From a virus: 31,328 bases of DNA. Location of the stretch: IMG/VR virus record IMGVR_UViG_3300031999_000135, positions 1-31,328 of that record. One strand, written 5' to 3'. The notes below the pieces were generated by a model that saw nothing but the letters and a program-made list of their open reading frames with translations, was not told the origin of the DNA and made no database searches. Position numbers and translations under genes: made by a program. Shown here in pieces: positions 6,003 to 29,723 of the stretch. The stretch's first letter is position 1, and each line of letters opens with the position of its first letter.

Positions 6003-6236
6003 ATGAAAATTAAGGATAAGATTATACTAGTTCTCGGTGTAGCAGTTTTTATAGCTTTTATCGCACTTGTAGGTGGAACTATTCTTTATTGGATTTGGCC
6101 CATTGCTATTCCTGCTACATTTCCTGGTGCTGTTGCTTCGGGCATTATAGCTGGAAAGTTAAGTTGGTGGTGTAGTGTAACATTAGTATGGATTTTTAGT
6201 ATTTTAATTAAAATGCTGCACTACAGATATCGGTAA
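6003..6236 (+). CDS. Small two-helix membrane protein
   Basis: A 77-residue protein with two clear membrane helices (residues about 7-31 and 49-70) joined by a short Gly/Ala-rich loop (FPGAVASGIIAGKLSWW), and basic residues at both ends. No catalytic motif. It is 16 bases after the previous stop and 9 before a second small membrane protein, which suggests they work together. Unknown family. Confidence 0.6.
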   Translation: MKIKDKIILVLGVAVFIAFIALVGGTILYWIWPIAIPATFPGAVASGIIAGKLSWWCSVTLVWIFSILIKMLHYRYR

Positions 6237-7873: not shown

Positions 7874-7947
7874 GCCTCTATCGTATAGTTGGTTTATTAC
7901 GCTAGATTTGTACTCTTGAAAGTGGGGTTCGATTCCTCATAGAGGCT
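7874..7947 (+). tRNA. tRNA-Thr (anticodon TGT)
   Basis: 74 bases. Acceptor GCCTCTA/TAGAGGC perfect, D-stem GTA/TAC, anticodon loop TTTGTAC (anticodon TGT), T-arm TGGGG-TTCGATT-CCTCA, discriminator T, C74 only. The anticodon stem has one mismatch. Confidence 0.92.
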
Positions 7948-7955
7948 CTTTTATT

Positions 7956-8037
7956 GGAAGATAGCATGCAAGGTGCATAACAGGACTTGAAATCCTGGCC
8001 AACCTTCGGGTTGAGGTTTCGATTACTTTATCTTCCG
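7956..8037 (+). tRNA. tRNA-Ser (anticodon TGA)
   Basis: 82 bases, class II. Acceptor GGAAGAT/ATCTTCC, anticodon stem CAGGA/TCCTG with loop CTTGAAA, long variable arm CAACC-TTCG-GGTTG, T-loop TTCGATT, discriminator G as usual for serine. The D-arm is compact and lacks a standard loop. Confidence 0.92.
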
Positions 8038-8120
8038 CACTGGGTGTAATCGTGGGGCAAACCATGTCTTCAGGTAATACTAGTTCTGATGAAGCATTTG
8101 ATGCTGATGCAGCCCAGTTT
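8038..8120 (+). other. Structured, coding-like spacer between two tRNA-Ser genes
   Basis: CTGGG (8040-8044) can pair with CCCAG near its 3' end, and GCAT-TTG-ATGC forms a hairpin inside. The segment is less AT-rich than its surroundings. A frame from ATG 8064 to TAA 8141 encodes a 25-residue acidic peptide (MSSGNTSSDEAFDADAAQFG at its N-terminus) and runs into the next tRNA. Whether it is an RNA, a peptide or debris is undecided. Confidence 0.35.
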
Positions 8121-8205
8121 GGAGGATTGACTGAGTGGTAAAGTATTAGTCTCGAAAACTAAAGTCATCGTTAAAGGTGCGTGGGTTCAATTCCTATATC
8201 CTCCG
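8121..8205 (+). tRNA. tRNA-Ser (anticodon CGA)
   Basis: 85 bases, class II. Acceptor GGAGGAT/ATCCTCC, D-stem ACT/AGT with GAGTGGTAA loop, anticodon stem TTAGT/ACTAA with loop CTCGAAA, extended variable arm, T-loop TTCAATT, discriminator G. Confidence 0.92.
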
Positions 8206-8210
8206 CTTTT

Positions 8211-8232
8211 TGGAAGATGGCCAGGACTGTAA
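8211..8232 (+). other. tRNA-Ser 5'-half-like fragment
   Basis: GGAAGATGGCCAGGACT at about 8212-8228 resembles the start of tRNA-Ser(TGA) (GGAAGATAG...CAGGACT) with most of the D-arm missing, directly before tRNA-Ser(GCT). It looks like a leftover of tandem duplication. Confidence 0.35.
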
Positions 8233-8318
8233 GGAAAGTAAAATAGTTAGGACACTATCCTCGTCTGCTAAGCGAAGGGGGCAGTAAAACGTCTGAGTTT
8301 CGAGTACTCTGCTTTCCG
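8233..8318 (+). tRNA. tRNA-Ser (anticodon GCT)
   Basis: 86 bases, class II. Acceptor GGAAAGT/GCTTTCC, D-stem ATAGT/ACTAT, anticodon loop CTGCTAA, extended variable arm, T-loop TTCGAGT, discriminator G. Reads AGY codons. Confidence 0.9.
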
Positions 8319-8321
8319 CAA

Positions 8322-8338
8322 ACTTTCTTATTAGAAAG
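8322..8338 (+). other. Hairpin between tRNA genes
   Basis: CTTTCT-TATT-AGAAAG, six base pairs with a four-base loop, between tRNA-Ser(GCT) and tRNA-Thr(CGT). Possibly a processing signal. Confidence 0.4.
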
Positions 8339-8343
8339 AGAAT

Positions 8344-8417
8344 TGCCTTTATAATATAAATGGCTATTATACATAATTCGTAATTATGATATTAGGATTC
8401 GATTTCCTATAAAGGCT
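8344..8417 (+). tRNA. tRNA-Thr (anticodon CGT)
   Basis: 74 bases. Acceptor GCCTTTA/TAAAGGC, anticodon stem CATAA/TTATG with loop TTCGTAA, T-arm TAGGA-TTCGATT-TCCTA perfect, discriminator T then C. Acceptor and D-arm resemble tRNA-Thr(TGT), so the two are probably duplicates with a changed anticodon arm. Confidence 0.93.
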
Positions 8418-8440
8418 CAAATTAAAATAAAAATAACAAA

Positions 8441-8884: not shown

Positions 8885-9280
8885 ATGAAACTAGATTCAA
8901 TTTTTCCAAACTCCAACACTAAAATTTCAAAAGAAATTTTTTTAAAAGTTTATAATAGCCATCCTGCTAATAAATGGACTAAATTTATATTTCGTTATTT
9001 TTCAAAAGAAACTAAACAAGAAAATCGTTGGTTAAGCAAACTTGTTACAATAATTCTTTTAAGTCTTTTTATCTTAGGTTTTATTAGTACAATATTACAC
9101 TTTAATAATATTTTTATGGGTATTGTAACTATTTTATTTACATTAATTTTATTATTTGTTACAGTTTCAATGTTTATCGCAGCAATGATAAATAATGTAA
9201 GAATAAAAAAGATTCGAAAAGAATTAAAATTATCTATAAAAGAATATAACTATTATGCATCAATGTACTTATCAAAATAA
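8885..9280 (+). CDS. Two-helix membrane protein
   Basis: A 131-residue protein: a basic soluble N-terminus (1-52), two long membrane helices (about 55-74 and 78-104) and a basic amphipathic C-terminus (IKKIRKELKLSIKEYN). The topology resembles a hairpin with both ends in the cytoplasm. No known family and no catalytic motif. It follows the last tRNA of the island and is itself followed by an intergenic stretch with a promoter motif 1 copy. Confidence 0.6.
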   Translation: MKLDSIFPNSNTKISKEIFLKVYNSHPANKWTKFIFRYFSKETKQENRWLSKLVTIILLSLFILGFISTILHFNNIFMGIVTILFTLILLFVTVSMFIAAMINNVRIKKIRKELKLSIKEYNYYASMYLSK

Positions 9281-9352
9281 TATGCCCAAAGTTGATTAGG
9301 TAAAATTAAATTTACAATTTAAAACTTTAATAAAACTTTAACAATATTTTCT

Positions 9353-9381
9353 CACATATATCAAATATTTTATTATATTTG
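9353..9381 (+). promoter_or_regulatory. Promoter motif 1 (TATCAAA-N8-TATATTTG)
   Basis: TATCAAA at 9359-9365 and TATATTTG at 9374-9381. The second box is a perfect Bacteroidota -7 element (TAnnTTTG). It drives 9406-9909 and, probably, the lone CRISPR-like repeat beyond. Confidence 0.65.
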
Positions 9382-9405
9382 TATCAATATTTAAAAATTA
9401 TAATT

Positions 9406-9606
9406 ATGACATCAGAAAAAGTACTTAGTCCAATTAGAGATGACAAAATGAACTCACATCTTAATGAAAGTGAAGTATGGAAAAATGCCTATCATCCTGA
9501 AGAAGTAACGGATGAAATTCGTGCTAAATATCCTTATTGGTTTAGATACACAATTAAATTCAATAACACCATTCCAGTTCAATGCACAAAATTCGAAACA
9601 CTATAA
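9406..9606 (+). CDS. Hypothetical protein
   Basis: 66 residues from the ATG at 9406. A TTG 27 bases earlier would extend the frame, but it lies inside the promoter -7 box, so the ATG is preferred. The protein is acidic with several Trp and Tyr (SEVWKNAYHPEEV, KYPYWFRYTIKFN) and may form a small mixed domain. It starts 25 bases after the promoter box and the next frame begins 7 bases after its stop. Not recognised. Confidence 0.6.
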   Translation: MTSEKVLSPIRDDKMNSHLNESEVWKNAYHPEEVTDEIRAKYPYWFRYTIKFNNTIPVQCTKFETL

Positions 9607-9612
9607 AAGCTT

Positions 9613-9909
9613 ATGTTTAATAAGGATAATAAAATGAAAGGCTGTGTTATTTTTAAAGAAGAAAATGGTTTTCCCAAAGATATAATTATTGAAACTACAG
9701 AATATGAAGATTTTGAGTCAGAATTCAAAGGATATAAATCATTTTTTAAAGATAAAAATGGAAAACTAATAGCAGAATTTTGTCACAATGATTTAAGAGC
9801 AAGAATTCATTGGGTAAATGGTTATTTTACAGGATTAAGAGAACTTATGCCAAATTATGTGCCCAAAGTAGCTCCTCTTATGGAAGCAATATTAAAAGCA
9901 AAAAAATAA
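9613..9909 (+). CDS. Hypothetical protein
   Basis: A 98-residue protein; a second ATG at 9634 (MKGCVIFKEENGFP) is also a reasonable start. The beta-alternating pattern (GCVIFKEENGFP, KLIAEFCHNDLRARIHW) followed by a C-terminal helix suggests a small alpha-beta fold. No family recognised. It ends 11 bases before the lone CRISPR-like repeat, so repeat and gene share a transcript. It could be checked as a protein partner or anti-CRISPR neighbour. Confidence 0.55.
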   Translation: MFNKDNKMKGCVIFKEENGFPKDIIIETTEYEDFESEFKGYKSFFKDKNGKLIAEFCHNDLRARIHWVNGYFTGLRELMPNYVPKVAPLMEAILKAKK

Positions 9910-9920
9910 TCAATTTTATT

Positions 9921-9949
9921 ATCGCGCCCCGGGGCGCGTGGATTGAAAC
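9921..9949 (+). CRISPR. Solitary type I-C-like CRISPR repeat (candidate RNA anti-CRISPR)
   Basis: 29 bases: TCGCGCCCC, then GGGGCGCG, then TGGATTGAAAC. The usual type I-C repeat (32 bases) has the same TCGCGCCCC, a short loop, GGGCGCG and the same 11-base 3' part that becomes the crRNA 5' handle. Here the loop is reduced, so CGCGCCCCGGGGCGCG is a perfect 16-base palindrome. It is the most GC-rich stretch in a very AT-rich neighbourhood, lies between two genes, and no second repeat or spacer array follows. Solitary phage repeats act as RNA anti-CRISPRs (Racr) by sequestering Cas proteins; that function is inferred here. Confidence 0.8.
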
Positions 9950-9982
9950 GGTAAATAATTACTAAATTTAAAAATTAAAATT

Positions 9983-10252
9983 ATGTCAAAGATTAAGAAA
10001 CCGTCAGAATTATGTCTCGGAAAAGCTGCACAGGCTTGGTGTACTGAAAAAACAAGTAGTAAGGTAATGGATGAAGATTTGGCTTATGCCTTTGCTGAAA
10101 TACTTGATGAAATTTGGGGAAAACCTTGGCTTGGAAATGCCACAACAGCAGAAATGCTTGATGAACTTGATGCAAGAAATATTAATGCAAAGAAACATAC
10201 AGTGAAACTAAGAAAGGTCATGGATTTGGAATACAAAACTGTCAATTCATAA
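9983..10252 (+). CDS. Hypothetical protein downstream of the CRISPR-like repeat
   Basis: An 89-residue soluble protein with a Trp- and Ala-rich helical first part (LCLGKAAQAWCTEKTS, AYAFAEILDEIWGKPWLGN, about 10-50) and a second helical half (TTAEMLDELDARNINAKKHT). Small phage proteins with this look, ending in a basic tail, are common but uncharacterised. It begins 33 bases after the repeat, so a Racr-Aca-like unit is possible, although no helix-turn-helix is evident. Codon use is a little less AT-rich than its neighbours. Confidence 0.6.
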   Translation: MSKIKKPSELCLGKAAQAWCTEKTSSKVMDEDLAYAFAEILDEIWGKPWLGNATTAEMLDELDARNINAKKHTVKLRKVMDLEYKTVNS

Positions 10253-10265
10253 ACTCGGTAACCTA

Positions 10266-10787
10266 ATGGCAGCGCACAAAAAAATAATCTTAGTTGGTCC
10301 AGCCGGCGCAGGAAAAGATTTCATCAAAAGTAAATTTCGTGAAAAAGGTTTTATTTGTGATGTGTCATACACAACACGTAAACCTAGAGAAGGAGAAAAA
10401 TACGGAGAAGATTATAACTTTATAAGTCGATCAGAATTTACATTGCGAATATCTCAGGGGGCTTTTTATGAACACATTAAGCATGGAGAGTATTTTTACG
10501 GTACTGGATTATATGAATGGAATAATTCAGATGTGTTTATTATGGAAACGGATGGGATTGCTCATATTAAAGCAGAAGATCGCCCCAATTGTTTAGTTAT
10601 TTTTATTAATACTCCTTTAGAAATTAGAAGAAAACGATTAGAAGAACGTGGATGGAATGAAATAAAAATCATGAACAGAATAAATATTGATCAACAAAAA
10701 TTCAATGTAATTGCCTTTATGGATTTTGATTTTCAAATAAGTAGTGTTTCTTATTCTCAAGGTTTACCTAATTTTAATAAAATGTAA
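10266..10787 (+). CDS. Guanylate-kinase-like nucleotide kinase
   Basis: A 173-residue P-loop protein. Walker A is GPAGAGKD (11-18), and the region YTTRKPREGEKYGEDYNF (about 35-52) matches the guanylate kinase GMP-binding stretch (YTTR.PR.GE..G.DY.F). EHIKHGEYFYGTG (about 69-81) resembles the following conserved part. It is shorter than typical bacterial Gmk (about 205 residues) and divergent towards the C-terminus. Guanylate kinase makes GDP from GMP, supplying phage DNA and RNA synthesis. A different nucleoside monophosphate specificity is possible. A tRNA-like RNA begins 8 bases after the stop. Confidence 0.8.
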   Translation: MAAHKKIILVGPAGAGKDFIKSKFREKGFICDVSYTTRKPREGEKYGEDYNFISRSEFTLRISQGAFYEHIKHGEYFYGTGLYEWNNSDVFIMETDGIAHIKAEDRPNCLVIFINTPLEIRRKRLEERGWNEIKIMNRINIDQQKFNVIAFMDFDFQISSVSYSQGLPNFNKM

Positions 10788-10794
10788 AATAGAT

Positions 10795-10870
10795 GCGCCT
10801 GTATCATGCCTCGCTTCGAACGAGGAGAAATGTAATTGGATTCATGAGGGTTCGAATCCCTTTAGGCGTA
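10795..10870 (+). tRNA. tRNA-Arg-like RNA (anticodon TCG) with D-arm and anticodon arm in reversed order
   Basis: 76 bases. Acceptor GCGCCTG/TAGGCGT and T-arm GAGGG-TTCGAAT-CCCTT are standard, discriminator A then C. The anticodon-type hairpin CCTCG-CTTCGAA-CGAGG follows only 7 bases after the acceptor. The D-arm-like hairpin ATG-TAATTGG-ATTCAT comes afterwards, before the T-arm. The total length is normal. Either the arms are truly permuted, or the RNA is D-armless with a 20-base variable arm. The CTTCGAA loop has U33 and a purine at 37. Confidence 0.6.
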
Positions 10871-10917
10871 CTAAATATTTGGGTTAGAATCCTGATATCT
10901 TCATATGATAATAATTT

Positions 10918-11001
10918 ATGGTAACATCTGTATATACAACTATTCCTTCTTCAATGCGCAATAAGCCTTTGCATGTTTATAGTTCGACTATTGATGCATG
11001 A
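10918..11001 (+). CDS. Small peptide coupled to the next gene (27 aa)
   Basis: An ATG frame of 27 codons whose TGA overlaps the next start (ATGA at 10998), a hallmark of translational coupling. The product is Ser/Thr-rich and not hydrophobic. It lies after the tRNA-Arg-like RNA. A short T-arm-like string (TTGGGTTAGAATCC at about 10878-10892) just upstream may be a tRNA remnant. Confidence 0.4.
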   Translation: MVTSVYTTIPSSMRNKPLHVYSSTIDA

Positions 11002-11240
11002 GTATAACACCTATTGATTACTATGAGACTACTACTCAAACATATTCAGGAAACGCTTACTTCGGAACTTACTCTGCTGAAGAAATTAAGAAAAGTGTCA
11101 AGAAAGCTATTAAAAAAATGATGGATACAATGTCTAAGGATGGTTGGATAGAACATGCAGATTATTATTTTGAACCTAAATTAACACCCATACATCTTCG
11201 AGGAGTTCGTCTCGATGGAAGGGGTTGGGGAAATCTTTAA
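10998..11240 (+). CDS. Hypothetical protein
   Basis: An 80-residue protein. A Tyr/Thr-rich N-terminus (DYYETTTQTYSGNAYFGTYS) precedes a basic helix (EEIKKSVKKAIKKMMDTMSK, about 28-47), and the C-terminus (HLRGVRLDGRGWGNL) is Gly/Arg-rich. The helix repeats Lys pairs on one face. Family unknown. It is coupled by a four-base overlap to the preceding small peptide and followed by promoter motif 1 for the paralogue cluster. Confidence 0.55.
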   Translation: MSITPIDYYETTTQTYSGNAYFGTYSAEEIKKSVKKAIKKMMDTMSKDGWIEHADYYFEPKLTPIHLRGVRLDGRGWGNL

Positions 11241-27620: not shown

Positions 27621-27652
27621 AAAAAAAGAGAGACATATGTCTCTCTTTTTTT
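27621..27652 (+). terminator. Rho-independent terminator after the capsid gene
   Basis: AAAAAGAGAGACAT/ATGTCTCTCTTTTT, a perfect 28-base inverted repeat followed by T. One of the strongest hairpins in the window. Confidence 0.93.
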
Positions 27653-29695: not shown

Positions 29696-29723
29696 AAAAG
29701 AGGAACTTAAGTTCCTCTTTTTT
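29696..29723. terminator. Bidirectional terminator between convergent genes
   Basis: AAAAGAGGAACTT/AAGTTCCTCTTTT, a perfect inverted repeat with T on one side and A on the other. It lies between the plus fibre gene and the minus FkbM gene. Confidence 0.92.

Follow-up and report, generated by a model that had tools for sequence, protein, structure and literature searches.

Does a lone 29-base sequence between two genes of a virus genome, built like a type I-C CRISPR repeat that has lost its loop, give rise to an RNA that interferes with the CRISPR system of the host? The sequence lies in a 31,328-base virus fragment (the whole of which is called the window here) that encodes a T4-type prohead protease and a gp23-like capsid protein. 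A first-pass annotation had proposed it as a candidate RNA anti-CRISPR; the observation itself is confirmed by the present analysis, and its interpretation is partly supported.

The repeat-like site and its setting

Positions 9921–9949 read ATCGCGCCCCGGGGCGCGTGGATTGAAAC, which divides into ATCGCGCCCC, GGGGCGCG and TGGATTGAAAC; the site thus combines a perfect GC palindrome of 16 bases (9923–9938) with an 11-base handle directly after it (9939–9949). Sequence and coordinates are exactly as first described, with both type I-C arms and the handle matched, no loop between the arms and no array. The AT-rich intergenic setting also stands: the repeat is placed 11 bases past the ORF98 stop codon (9909) and 33 bases ahead of the ORF89 ATG (9983), and these 11 + 33 flanking bases have a GC content of 9%. 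The features of the region are the following:

9336–9384, plus strand: promoter-like block TTTAACAATAT...TTATATTTG.AT, common to the relative L337
9406–9606, plus strand: gene X, read from the ATG at 9406 in preference to the TTG (9379) given in the ORF list; syntenic in relatives L334, L337 and L339
9613–9909, plus strand: ORF98, the upstream neighbour, with a homolog in L337 (tblastn 37%, E 5.5e-9)
9921–9949, plus strand: solitary type I-C-like repeat (arms 9923–9930 and 9931–9938, handle TGGATTGAAAC at 9939–9949)
9950–9982, plus strand: 33-base AT-rich leader between the handle and the ORF89 start, a candidate pseudo-guide
9983–10252, plus strand: ORF89 (89 aa), candidate co-inserted partner, no family and no relative found
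10266–10787, plus strand: guanylate kinase gene, the downstream neighbour, present in many relatives

No second or partial repeat was found within about 100 bp of the site, which is therefore solitary as well as intergenic, and it lacks the minimum that defines a CRISPR mini-array, at least a pair of repeats separated by a spacer. The identical 27-mer occurs nowhere else in IMG/VR, and no DNA relatives of positions 9201–11200 were found among phages.

Could the site be some other GC palindrome (an operator, a terminator or an assembly artefact) that stands in front of TGGATTGAAAC by accident? Its palindrome per se is unremarkable, because other loop-less perfect palindromes, 24–30 bases long, are abundant in the window. 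By itself the handle carries little weight as well, since it has four matches at ≤1 mismatch in the window (the exact one at the site and three far-off ones with one mismatch) against a shuffle mean of 1.22. What is remarkable is the GC content and the attached handle: base composition predicts, on both strands, 0.024 occurrences of the handle, 5e-9 of one arm plus handle and 5e-16 of the 27-mer, and the 16 bases of the repeat form the longest G/C run in the window (the runner-up has 10) and exceed any in the 465 kb of relatives' DNA examined (maximum 11). Of the perfect 16-base GC palindrome to which the first-pass annotation drew attention, then, the unmatched GC run keeps its weight and the palindromic form does not. 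In addition, no T-run follows the palindrome and handle, and Rfam recognizes only tRNAs in the window; we regard an accidental resemblance as scarcely credible. Two of the other palindromes, of 30 and 26 bases (27622–27651 and 29696–29721), have A-run/T-run ends and are probably bidirectional terminators. One of the Rfam tRNA matches (10795–10870, 34.8 bits) lies directly downstream of the guanylate kinase gene and was not called by ARAGORN, which places four clustered tRNA genes (Thr, Ser, Ser, Thr) at 7874–8418 and further ones at 2201 (Arg) and 3012 (Gly).

In the absence of a loop, the predicted fold of the repeat RNA has 6 bp in its stem and CCGG as the tetraloop (−11.0 kcal/mol), whereas two Bacteroidales array repeats form 7-bp stems of −14.0 kcal/mol, 1 bp longer and 3 kcal/mol stronger. 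The stability of the wider 85-nt region is nothing unusual compared with shuffled sequences (z −0.52).

The carrier phage and an apparent inserted cassette

Among named phages the capsid protein is nearest to that of the Prevotella Lak phages (47%), and as contigs of 405 and 323 kb are found among its IMG/VR relatives at 66–87% capsid identity, the fragment is probably part of a huge-phage genome. CRISPR arrays are described in some huge phages, in certain cases with repeats that resemble those of their hosts (PMC7162821, available text).

We searched 43 relatives, chosen from 80 of the 145 found and including some short fragments, and none of the 43 carries the repeat. A search of the same records with GCGTGGATTGAAAC gave 13 matches in 12 of the 43, all of them two mismatches away, where the reversed control gave 9, and conservation of the repeat among relatives was therefore rejected. 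The earlier argument that preservation of handle and stem speaks for selection fails on the same counts: with no relative carrying the repeat, selection is not demonstrable from preservation. Judged by this distribution the repeat is probably a recent accessory element; its sequence gives the impression of a new, undamaged acquisition and not of an old one kept by conservation.

The gene order of one relative gives a possible account of how it arrived, which the first-pass annotation had missed. In L337, gene X (63% identical), the ORF98 homolog and the guanylate kinase gene are contiguous and the latter two nearly overlap; in the window, the repeat and ORF89 sit between ORF98 and the kinase gene. 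The simplest reading is that repeat and ORF89 came in as one small inserted cassette of about 350–430 bases, whose edges are approximate because the C-terminal ~20 residues of ORF98 are also without counterpart in L337. The polarity of this change is read from that one relative, and the cassette may instead have been lost from the L337 lineage. Two further relatives (L334:12055–14586 and L339:11409–13937) encode a secreted-looking protein of 842–843 aa with a signal-like start between gene X and the kinase gene; since they hold another gene after X, the slot between gene X and the kinase gene appears from these gene orders to be variable in these phages.

ORF89 has the second highest GC content (0.359) among the 47 ORFs, and its single-sequence structure prediction is helical and of low confidence (mean pLDDT 50.9). 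No relatives of it were found in IMG/VR (close scan), phage records, plasmids or the 43 related phages; among the loci collected in this study the sole hit was to L176 (E 0.30 over 36 aa), which we judge to be chance. Nor did it match Pfam, PHROGs, PDB sequences or the known Acr families, and NCBIfam gave only a far match below the cutoff.

Type I-C arrays and other solitary repeats

Species genomes (84,980 in the collection) were scanned for the identical 8-base arms separated by a loop of 0–8 bases and followed by the handle. The same arms and handle occur in 119 genome stretches, many of them arrays, which bears out the type I-C identity that had been assigned to the site. Loop lengths by locus are 2 (1 locus), 3 (9), 4 (108) and 5 bases (2), some loci having more than one length, and none of the 119 combines this stem with a loop of 0. 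The array of the rumen Bacteroidales genome RUG12632 (L024, G044) has the repeat GTCGCGCCCCACGTGGGCGCGTGGATTGAAAC plus copies with shorter loops, and one Cas5d gene (TIGR01876, E 1.1e-67) is found in this genome on contig C3, where repeat copies lie too. Its arms (CGCGCCC/GGGCGCG) and handle are the same as those of the phage repeat; it differs from the solitary, loop-less phage repeat by its loop, its many copies in a long array and the Cas5d gene that accompanies it in the genome. In a Spirochaetes array (L033:1191–1219) the third-last copy has a shortened loop, so compact repeats can arise within arrays; the notion that a missing loop is special in itself was weakened by this copy and by the abundance of palindromes in the window.

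The comparison with type I-C repeats of Bacteroidota hosts that the first-pass annotation had called for, made here with Bacteroidales, came out in favour of a match: exact 7-base arms plus handle are present in 2 of 393 Bacteroidales genomes, a set that includes G044, itself picked for its repeat. Both are Cas5d-positive, as are 15 of the 393 overall, so host systems that could, by their gene content, read such a repeat exist among Bacteroidales, the order sampled here. When 1,957 type I-C spacers taken from the loci collected in this study were compared with the window and its relatives, the matches listed were only 15–17-base exact or 19–20-base near ones, and a spacer link to the phage was dropped.

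Other viruses also carry such elements. A degenerate scan of IMG/VR gave at least 120 stretches with at least 244 matches, at least 101 of which are solitary (duplicates included). Among the matches listed, once duplicates, sites <200 nt from a locus end and those accompanied by another handle ≤160 nt away had been dropped or set apart, there are 79 distinct solitary sites, and 19 of these 79 have a same-strand Shine–Dalgarno plus ATG start ≤45 nt downstream; the corresponding controls, also among the matches listed, are 2/79 in antisense, 1/109 for array-like copies and, for random positions, 2.0 on average (maximum 6). With intergenic sites defined more strictly, the values among these matches are 5/20 against 55/956 (5.8%) of random intergenic-like positions, and when only co-directional gaps among them are considered, 15 of 31 sites lie ≤45 nt from a start, where sites spread uniformly over such gaps would be expected to give 28%. 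The enrichment in leaders is thus strong relative to random positions and modest relative to co-directional gaps, and the leader position of the phage repeat is common for elements of this kind.

Such a position could mean that the repeat is a Cas-responsive leader, in which Cas5d binding or cutting switches the translation or stability of the ORF89–kinase mRNA. The level of ORF89, possibly an anti-CRISPR, would then depend on whether a type I-C system is there, and any decoy effect would be secondary. The repeat does lie within a 5' leader, 33 nt ahead of a start codon, and the 15 of 31 viral sites in co-directional gaps fit this as well. However, the start enrichment is modest, the gene calls are crude, direct evidence is absent and the genes downstream of the 19 leader cases are diverse: six have matches among functionally named PHROGs (tail assembly chaperone, transglycosylase, holin, SbcC-like, head decoration and tail protein), two match families of unknown function and 11 have no match. 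We consider sensing as the main role improbable.

When the IMG/VR scan was restricted to loops of ≤2 bases, seven stretches were found. Two of them, L219 and L345, like the phage repeat, are solitary and have a 16-base perfect palindrome followed by the same handle; they differ in having other stems and belonging to other phages, and no ORF89 homolog was found in L219 by a search that covered L345 too. L137 has a 15-base palindrome and L238 a 14-base one beside a second repeat, L134 and L346 are the same site, and L226 is an array. In L238 (5050–5300) the two repeats form a mini-array with differing stems, and a third, solitary repeat follows about 1 kb on, at 6178. A 50-kb viral contig (IMGVR_UViG_3300031673_000079; L129 and L133) carries one I-C-like repeat at three scattered places, solitary at each, with some 600 bases between two of the copies. 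In eight loci (L121, L129, L133, L148, L149, L151, L153 and L227) AAAC or AAACAAAC comes after the handle, which looks as though its end were present twice.

These observations bear on whether the phage repeat is a functionless relic, a degenerate unit of the distal part of an array in a host that recombined into the phage together with ORF89 and has no role. The loop-shortened, non-consensus copy near the end of the L033 array, the shortened loops in the Bacteroidales array L024 and the absence of the repeat from all 43 relatives searched speak for such an origin. A decayed array remnant, however, might have kept a spacer or a second decayed repeat, and none remains; its handle and both arms are without mismatch despite the 9% GC flanks, and it occupies a leader position, as do about a quarter of the other viral type I-C solitary repeats. 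We think a functionless relic unlikely, if still worth serious consideration.

A possible decoy for type I-C Cas proteins

Solitary repeats active against CRISPR systems have been described in the available text of PMC10651486, which includes a type I-C case, so the annotation was right that active elements of this kind are known. The I-F element described there, a solitary repeat, captures Cas6f together with Cas7f and so blocks Cascade formation; the binding work in that text concerns this I-F case, and the annotation's statement that Cas5d and Cas7 are bound is not supported by it for type I-C. RacrIC1, from a Bifidobacterium pseudocatenulatum prophage, is co-transcribed with an acrIC5 homolog and restores phage infection under I-C targeting; crRNA processing in type I-C is by Cas5 (PMC10651486, Extended Data Fig. 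9 legend). RacrIC1 and the phage repeat are both solitary I-C repeats in phages and both are co-transcribed with a small gene (as reported for RacrIC1 and presumed for the phage repeat); RacrIC1 lies 11 nt downstream of the acrIC5 homolog and has demonstrated activity, whereas the phage repeat lies upstream of ORF89, is loop-less and has putative activity. The same text describes SRUFinder, which collected solitary repeat units from IMG/VR3, GTDB prophages and PLSDB (2,103 of them viral) using 17,823 repeats and requiring ≥90% identity and coverage and a bit score ≥41.1. Like those units, the phage repeat is intergenic and solitary and matches a CRISPR repeat; it is a repeat of known subtype in a mobile element (a virus record), and by analogy it fits the solitary-repeat class and may be called Racr-like. 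Compared with the 146 repeats collected here (where SRUFinder uses 17,823), it has, against the best of them, 100% identity, 44.1 bits and an ungapped coverage of 22/33. Because the loop deletion leaves these 22 of 33 bases ungapped, under the 90% coverage rule as described there, SRUFinder would probably count it as a partial match only, and finders that demand such coverage may under-count loop-less repeats. Titles and abstracts listed by searches of open-access literature held nothing on loop-less solitary repeats or on their placement in phage mRNA leaders, a scope that does not prove such work absent.

The repeat is co-directional with its neighbours, and the promoter-like block at 9336–9384 lies about 550 bases upstream, in agreement with the co-transcription that the first-pass annotation had assumed. 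Since this block stands ahead of gene X and is common to L337, it likely starts a polycistronic X–ORF98–repeat–ORF89–kinase transcript that would be the source of the repeat RNA. RacrIF1, by contrast, is described with a strong promoter directly upstream (PMC10651486); by eye, we noticed no promoter-like sequence between ORF98 and the phage repeat.

We favour, with some reserve, the reading that a phage with a T4-like capsid acquired the repeat together with ORF89 and that the repeat RNA serves, in the manner of a Racr, as a decoy for type I-C systems. Transcribed within the X–ORF98–ORF89–kinase mRNA, its stem and handle would be recognized by host Cas5d, which would have to accept a loop-less hairpin. 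Cas5d cleaves at the foot of the stem on its 3' side, and the 11-base handle stays on the downstream RNA. After such a cut Cas5d would remain on the handle, now the 5' end of the ORF89 message, and Cas7 subunits could line the 33-base leader to give a Cascade subcomplex with a useless guide, so that Cas5d and Cas7 would be withdrawn from real crRNAs; ORF89 might itself have an anti-CRISPR role. The length of the leader is close to that of real guides (34 is the most common length among the 1,957 I-C spacers, followed by 35 and 33). As the type I-C PAM is TTC and the handle terminates in AAC, the locus itself should be safe from targeting by the leader.

For the decoy we count the exact I-C arms and handle (chance expectation 5e-9), the existence of I-C systems in Bacteroidales, a capsid nearest to that of the Prevotella Lak phages, the insertion-like arrangement relative to L337, the activity reported for RacrIC1, the frequency of solitary I-C-like repeats in viral contigs and their placement ahead of starts, and the AAC end of the handle. 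Against it we count the absence from all 43 relatives, a stem shorter and weaker than those of array repeats, the 85-nt z value of −0.52, the lack of a promoter directly upstream, the lack of an Acr match for ORF89, the polarity of the insertion taken from a single relative, and spacer matches to the phage and its relatives that, among those listed, are short only.

A handle followed by a spacer-length stretch could also be a CreA-like guide, in which handle and 33-nt leader make up a crRNA-like RNA that sends Cascade to a partly complementary promoter. The 31-kb window, however, contains only three sites with a TTC PAM and 6/7 seed matches, these match at 11–14 of 34 positions overall, none is near the locus, and there is no second repeat-like element. 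With no convincing PAM-flanked seed match in the window we rejected such a regulatory guide, which we hold to be very improbable.

The decoy reading differs from the I-F precedent at one point. The RacrIF1 product is described as being without a 5' handle (PMC10651486), and the Cas5d product proposed here would keep it, so the leader position predicts, unlike the I-F mechanism, an intact 5' handle left by Cas5d on the phage mRNA. Cas5d, unlike Cas6f, keeps the handle on the downstream RNA, and because of this one may speculate, as a long shot, that type I-C solitary repeats in phage mRNA leaders cause a whole but blind Cascade to assemble at the start of the message, over the handle and a leader of spacer length that runs up to the start codon. 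The complex would thereby be sequestered, and the phage could at the same time detect the CRISPR system of its host and adjust the downstream gene, possibly an anti-CRISPR, to it; the loss of the loop would be an adaptation to this use. If the repeat is active, the range of RNA anti-CRISPRs would come to include a relative of the Lak-like huge phages, a loop-less repeat would suffice for activity, and ORF89 would be a candidate anti-CRISPR gene.
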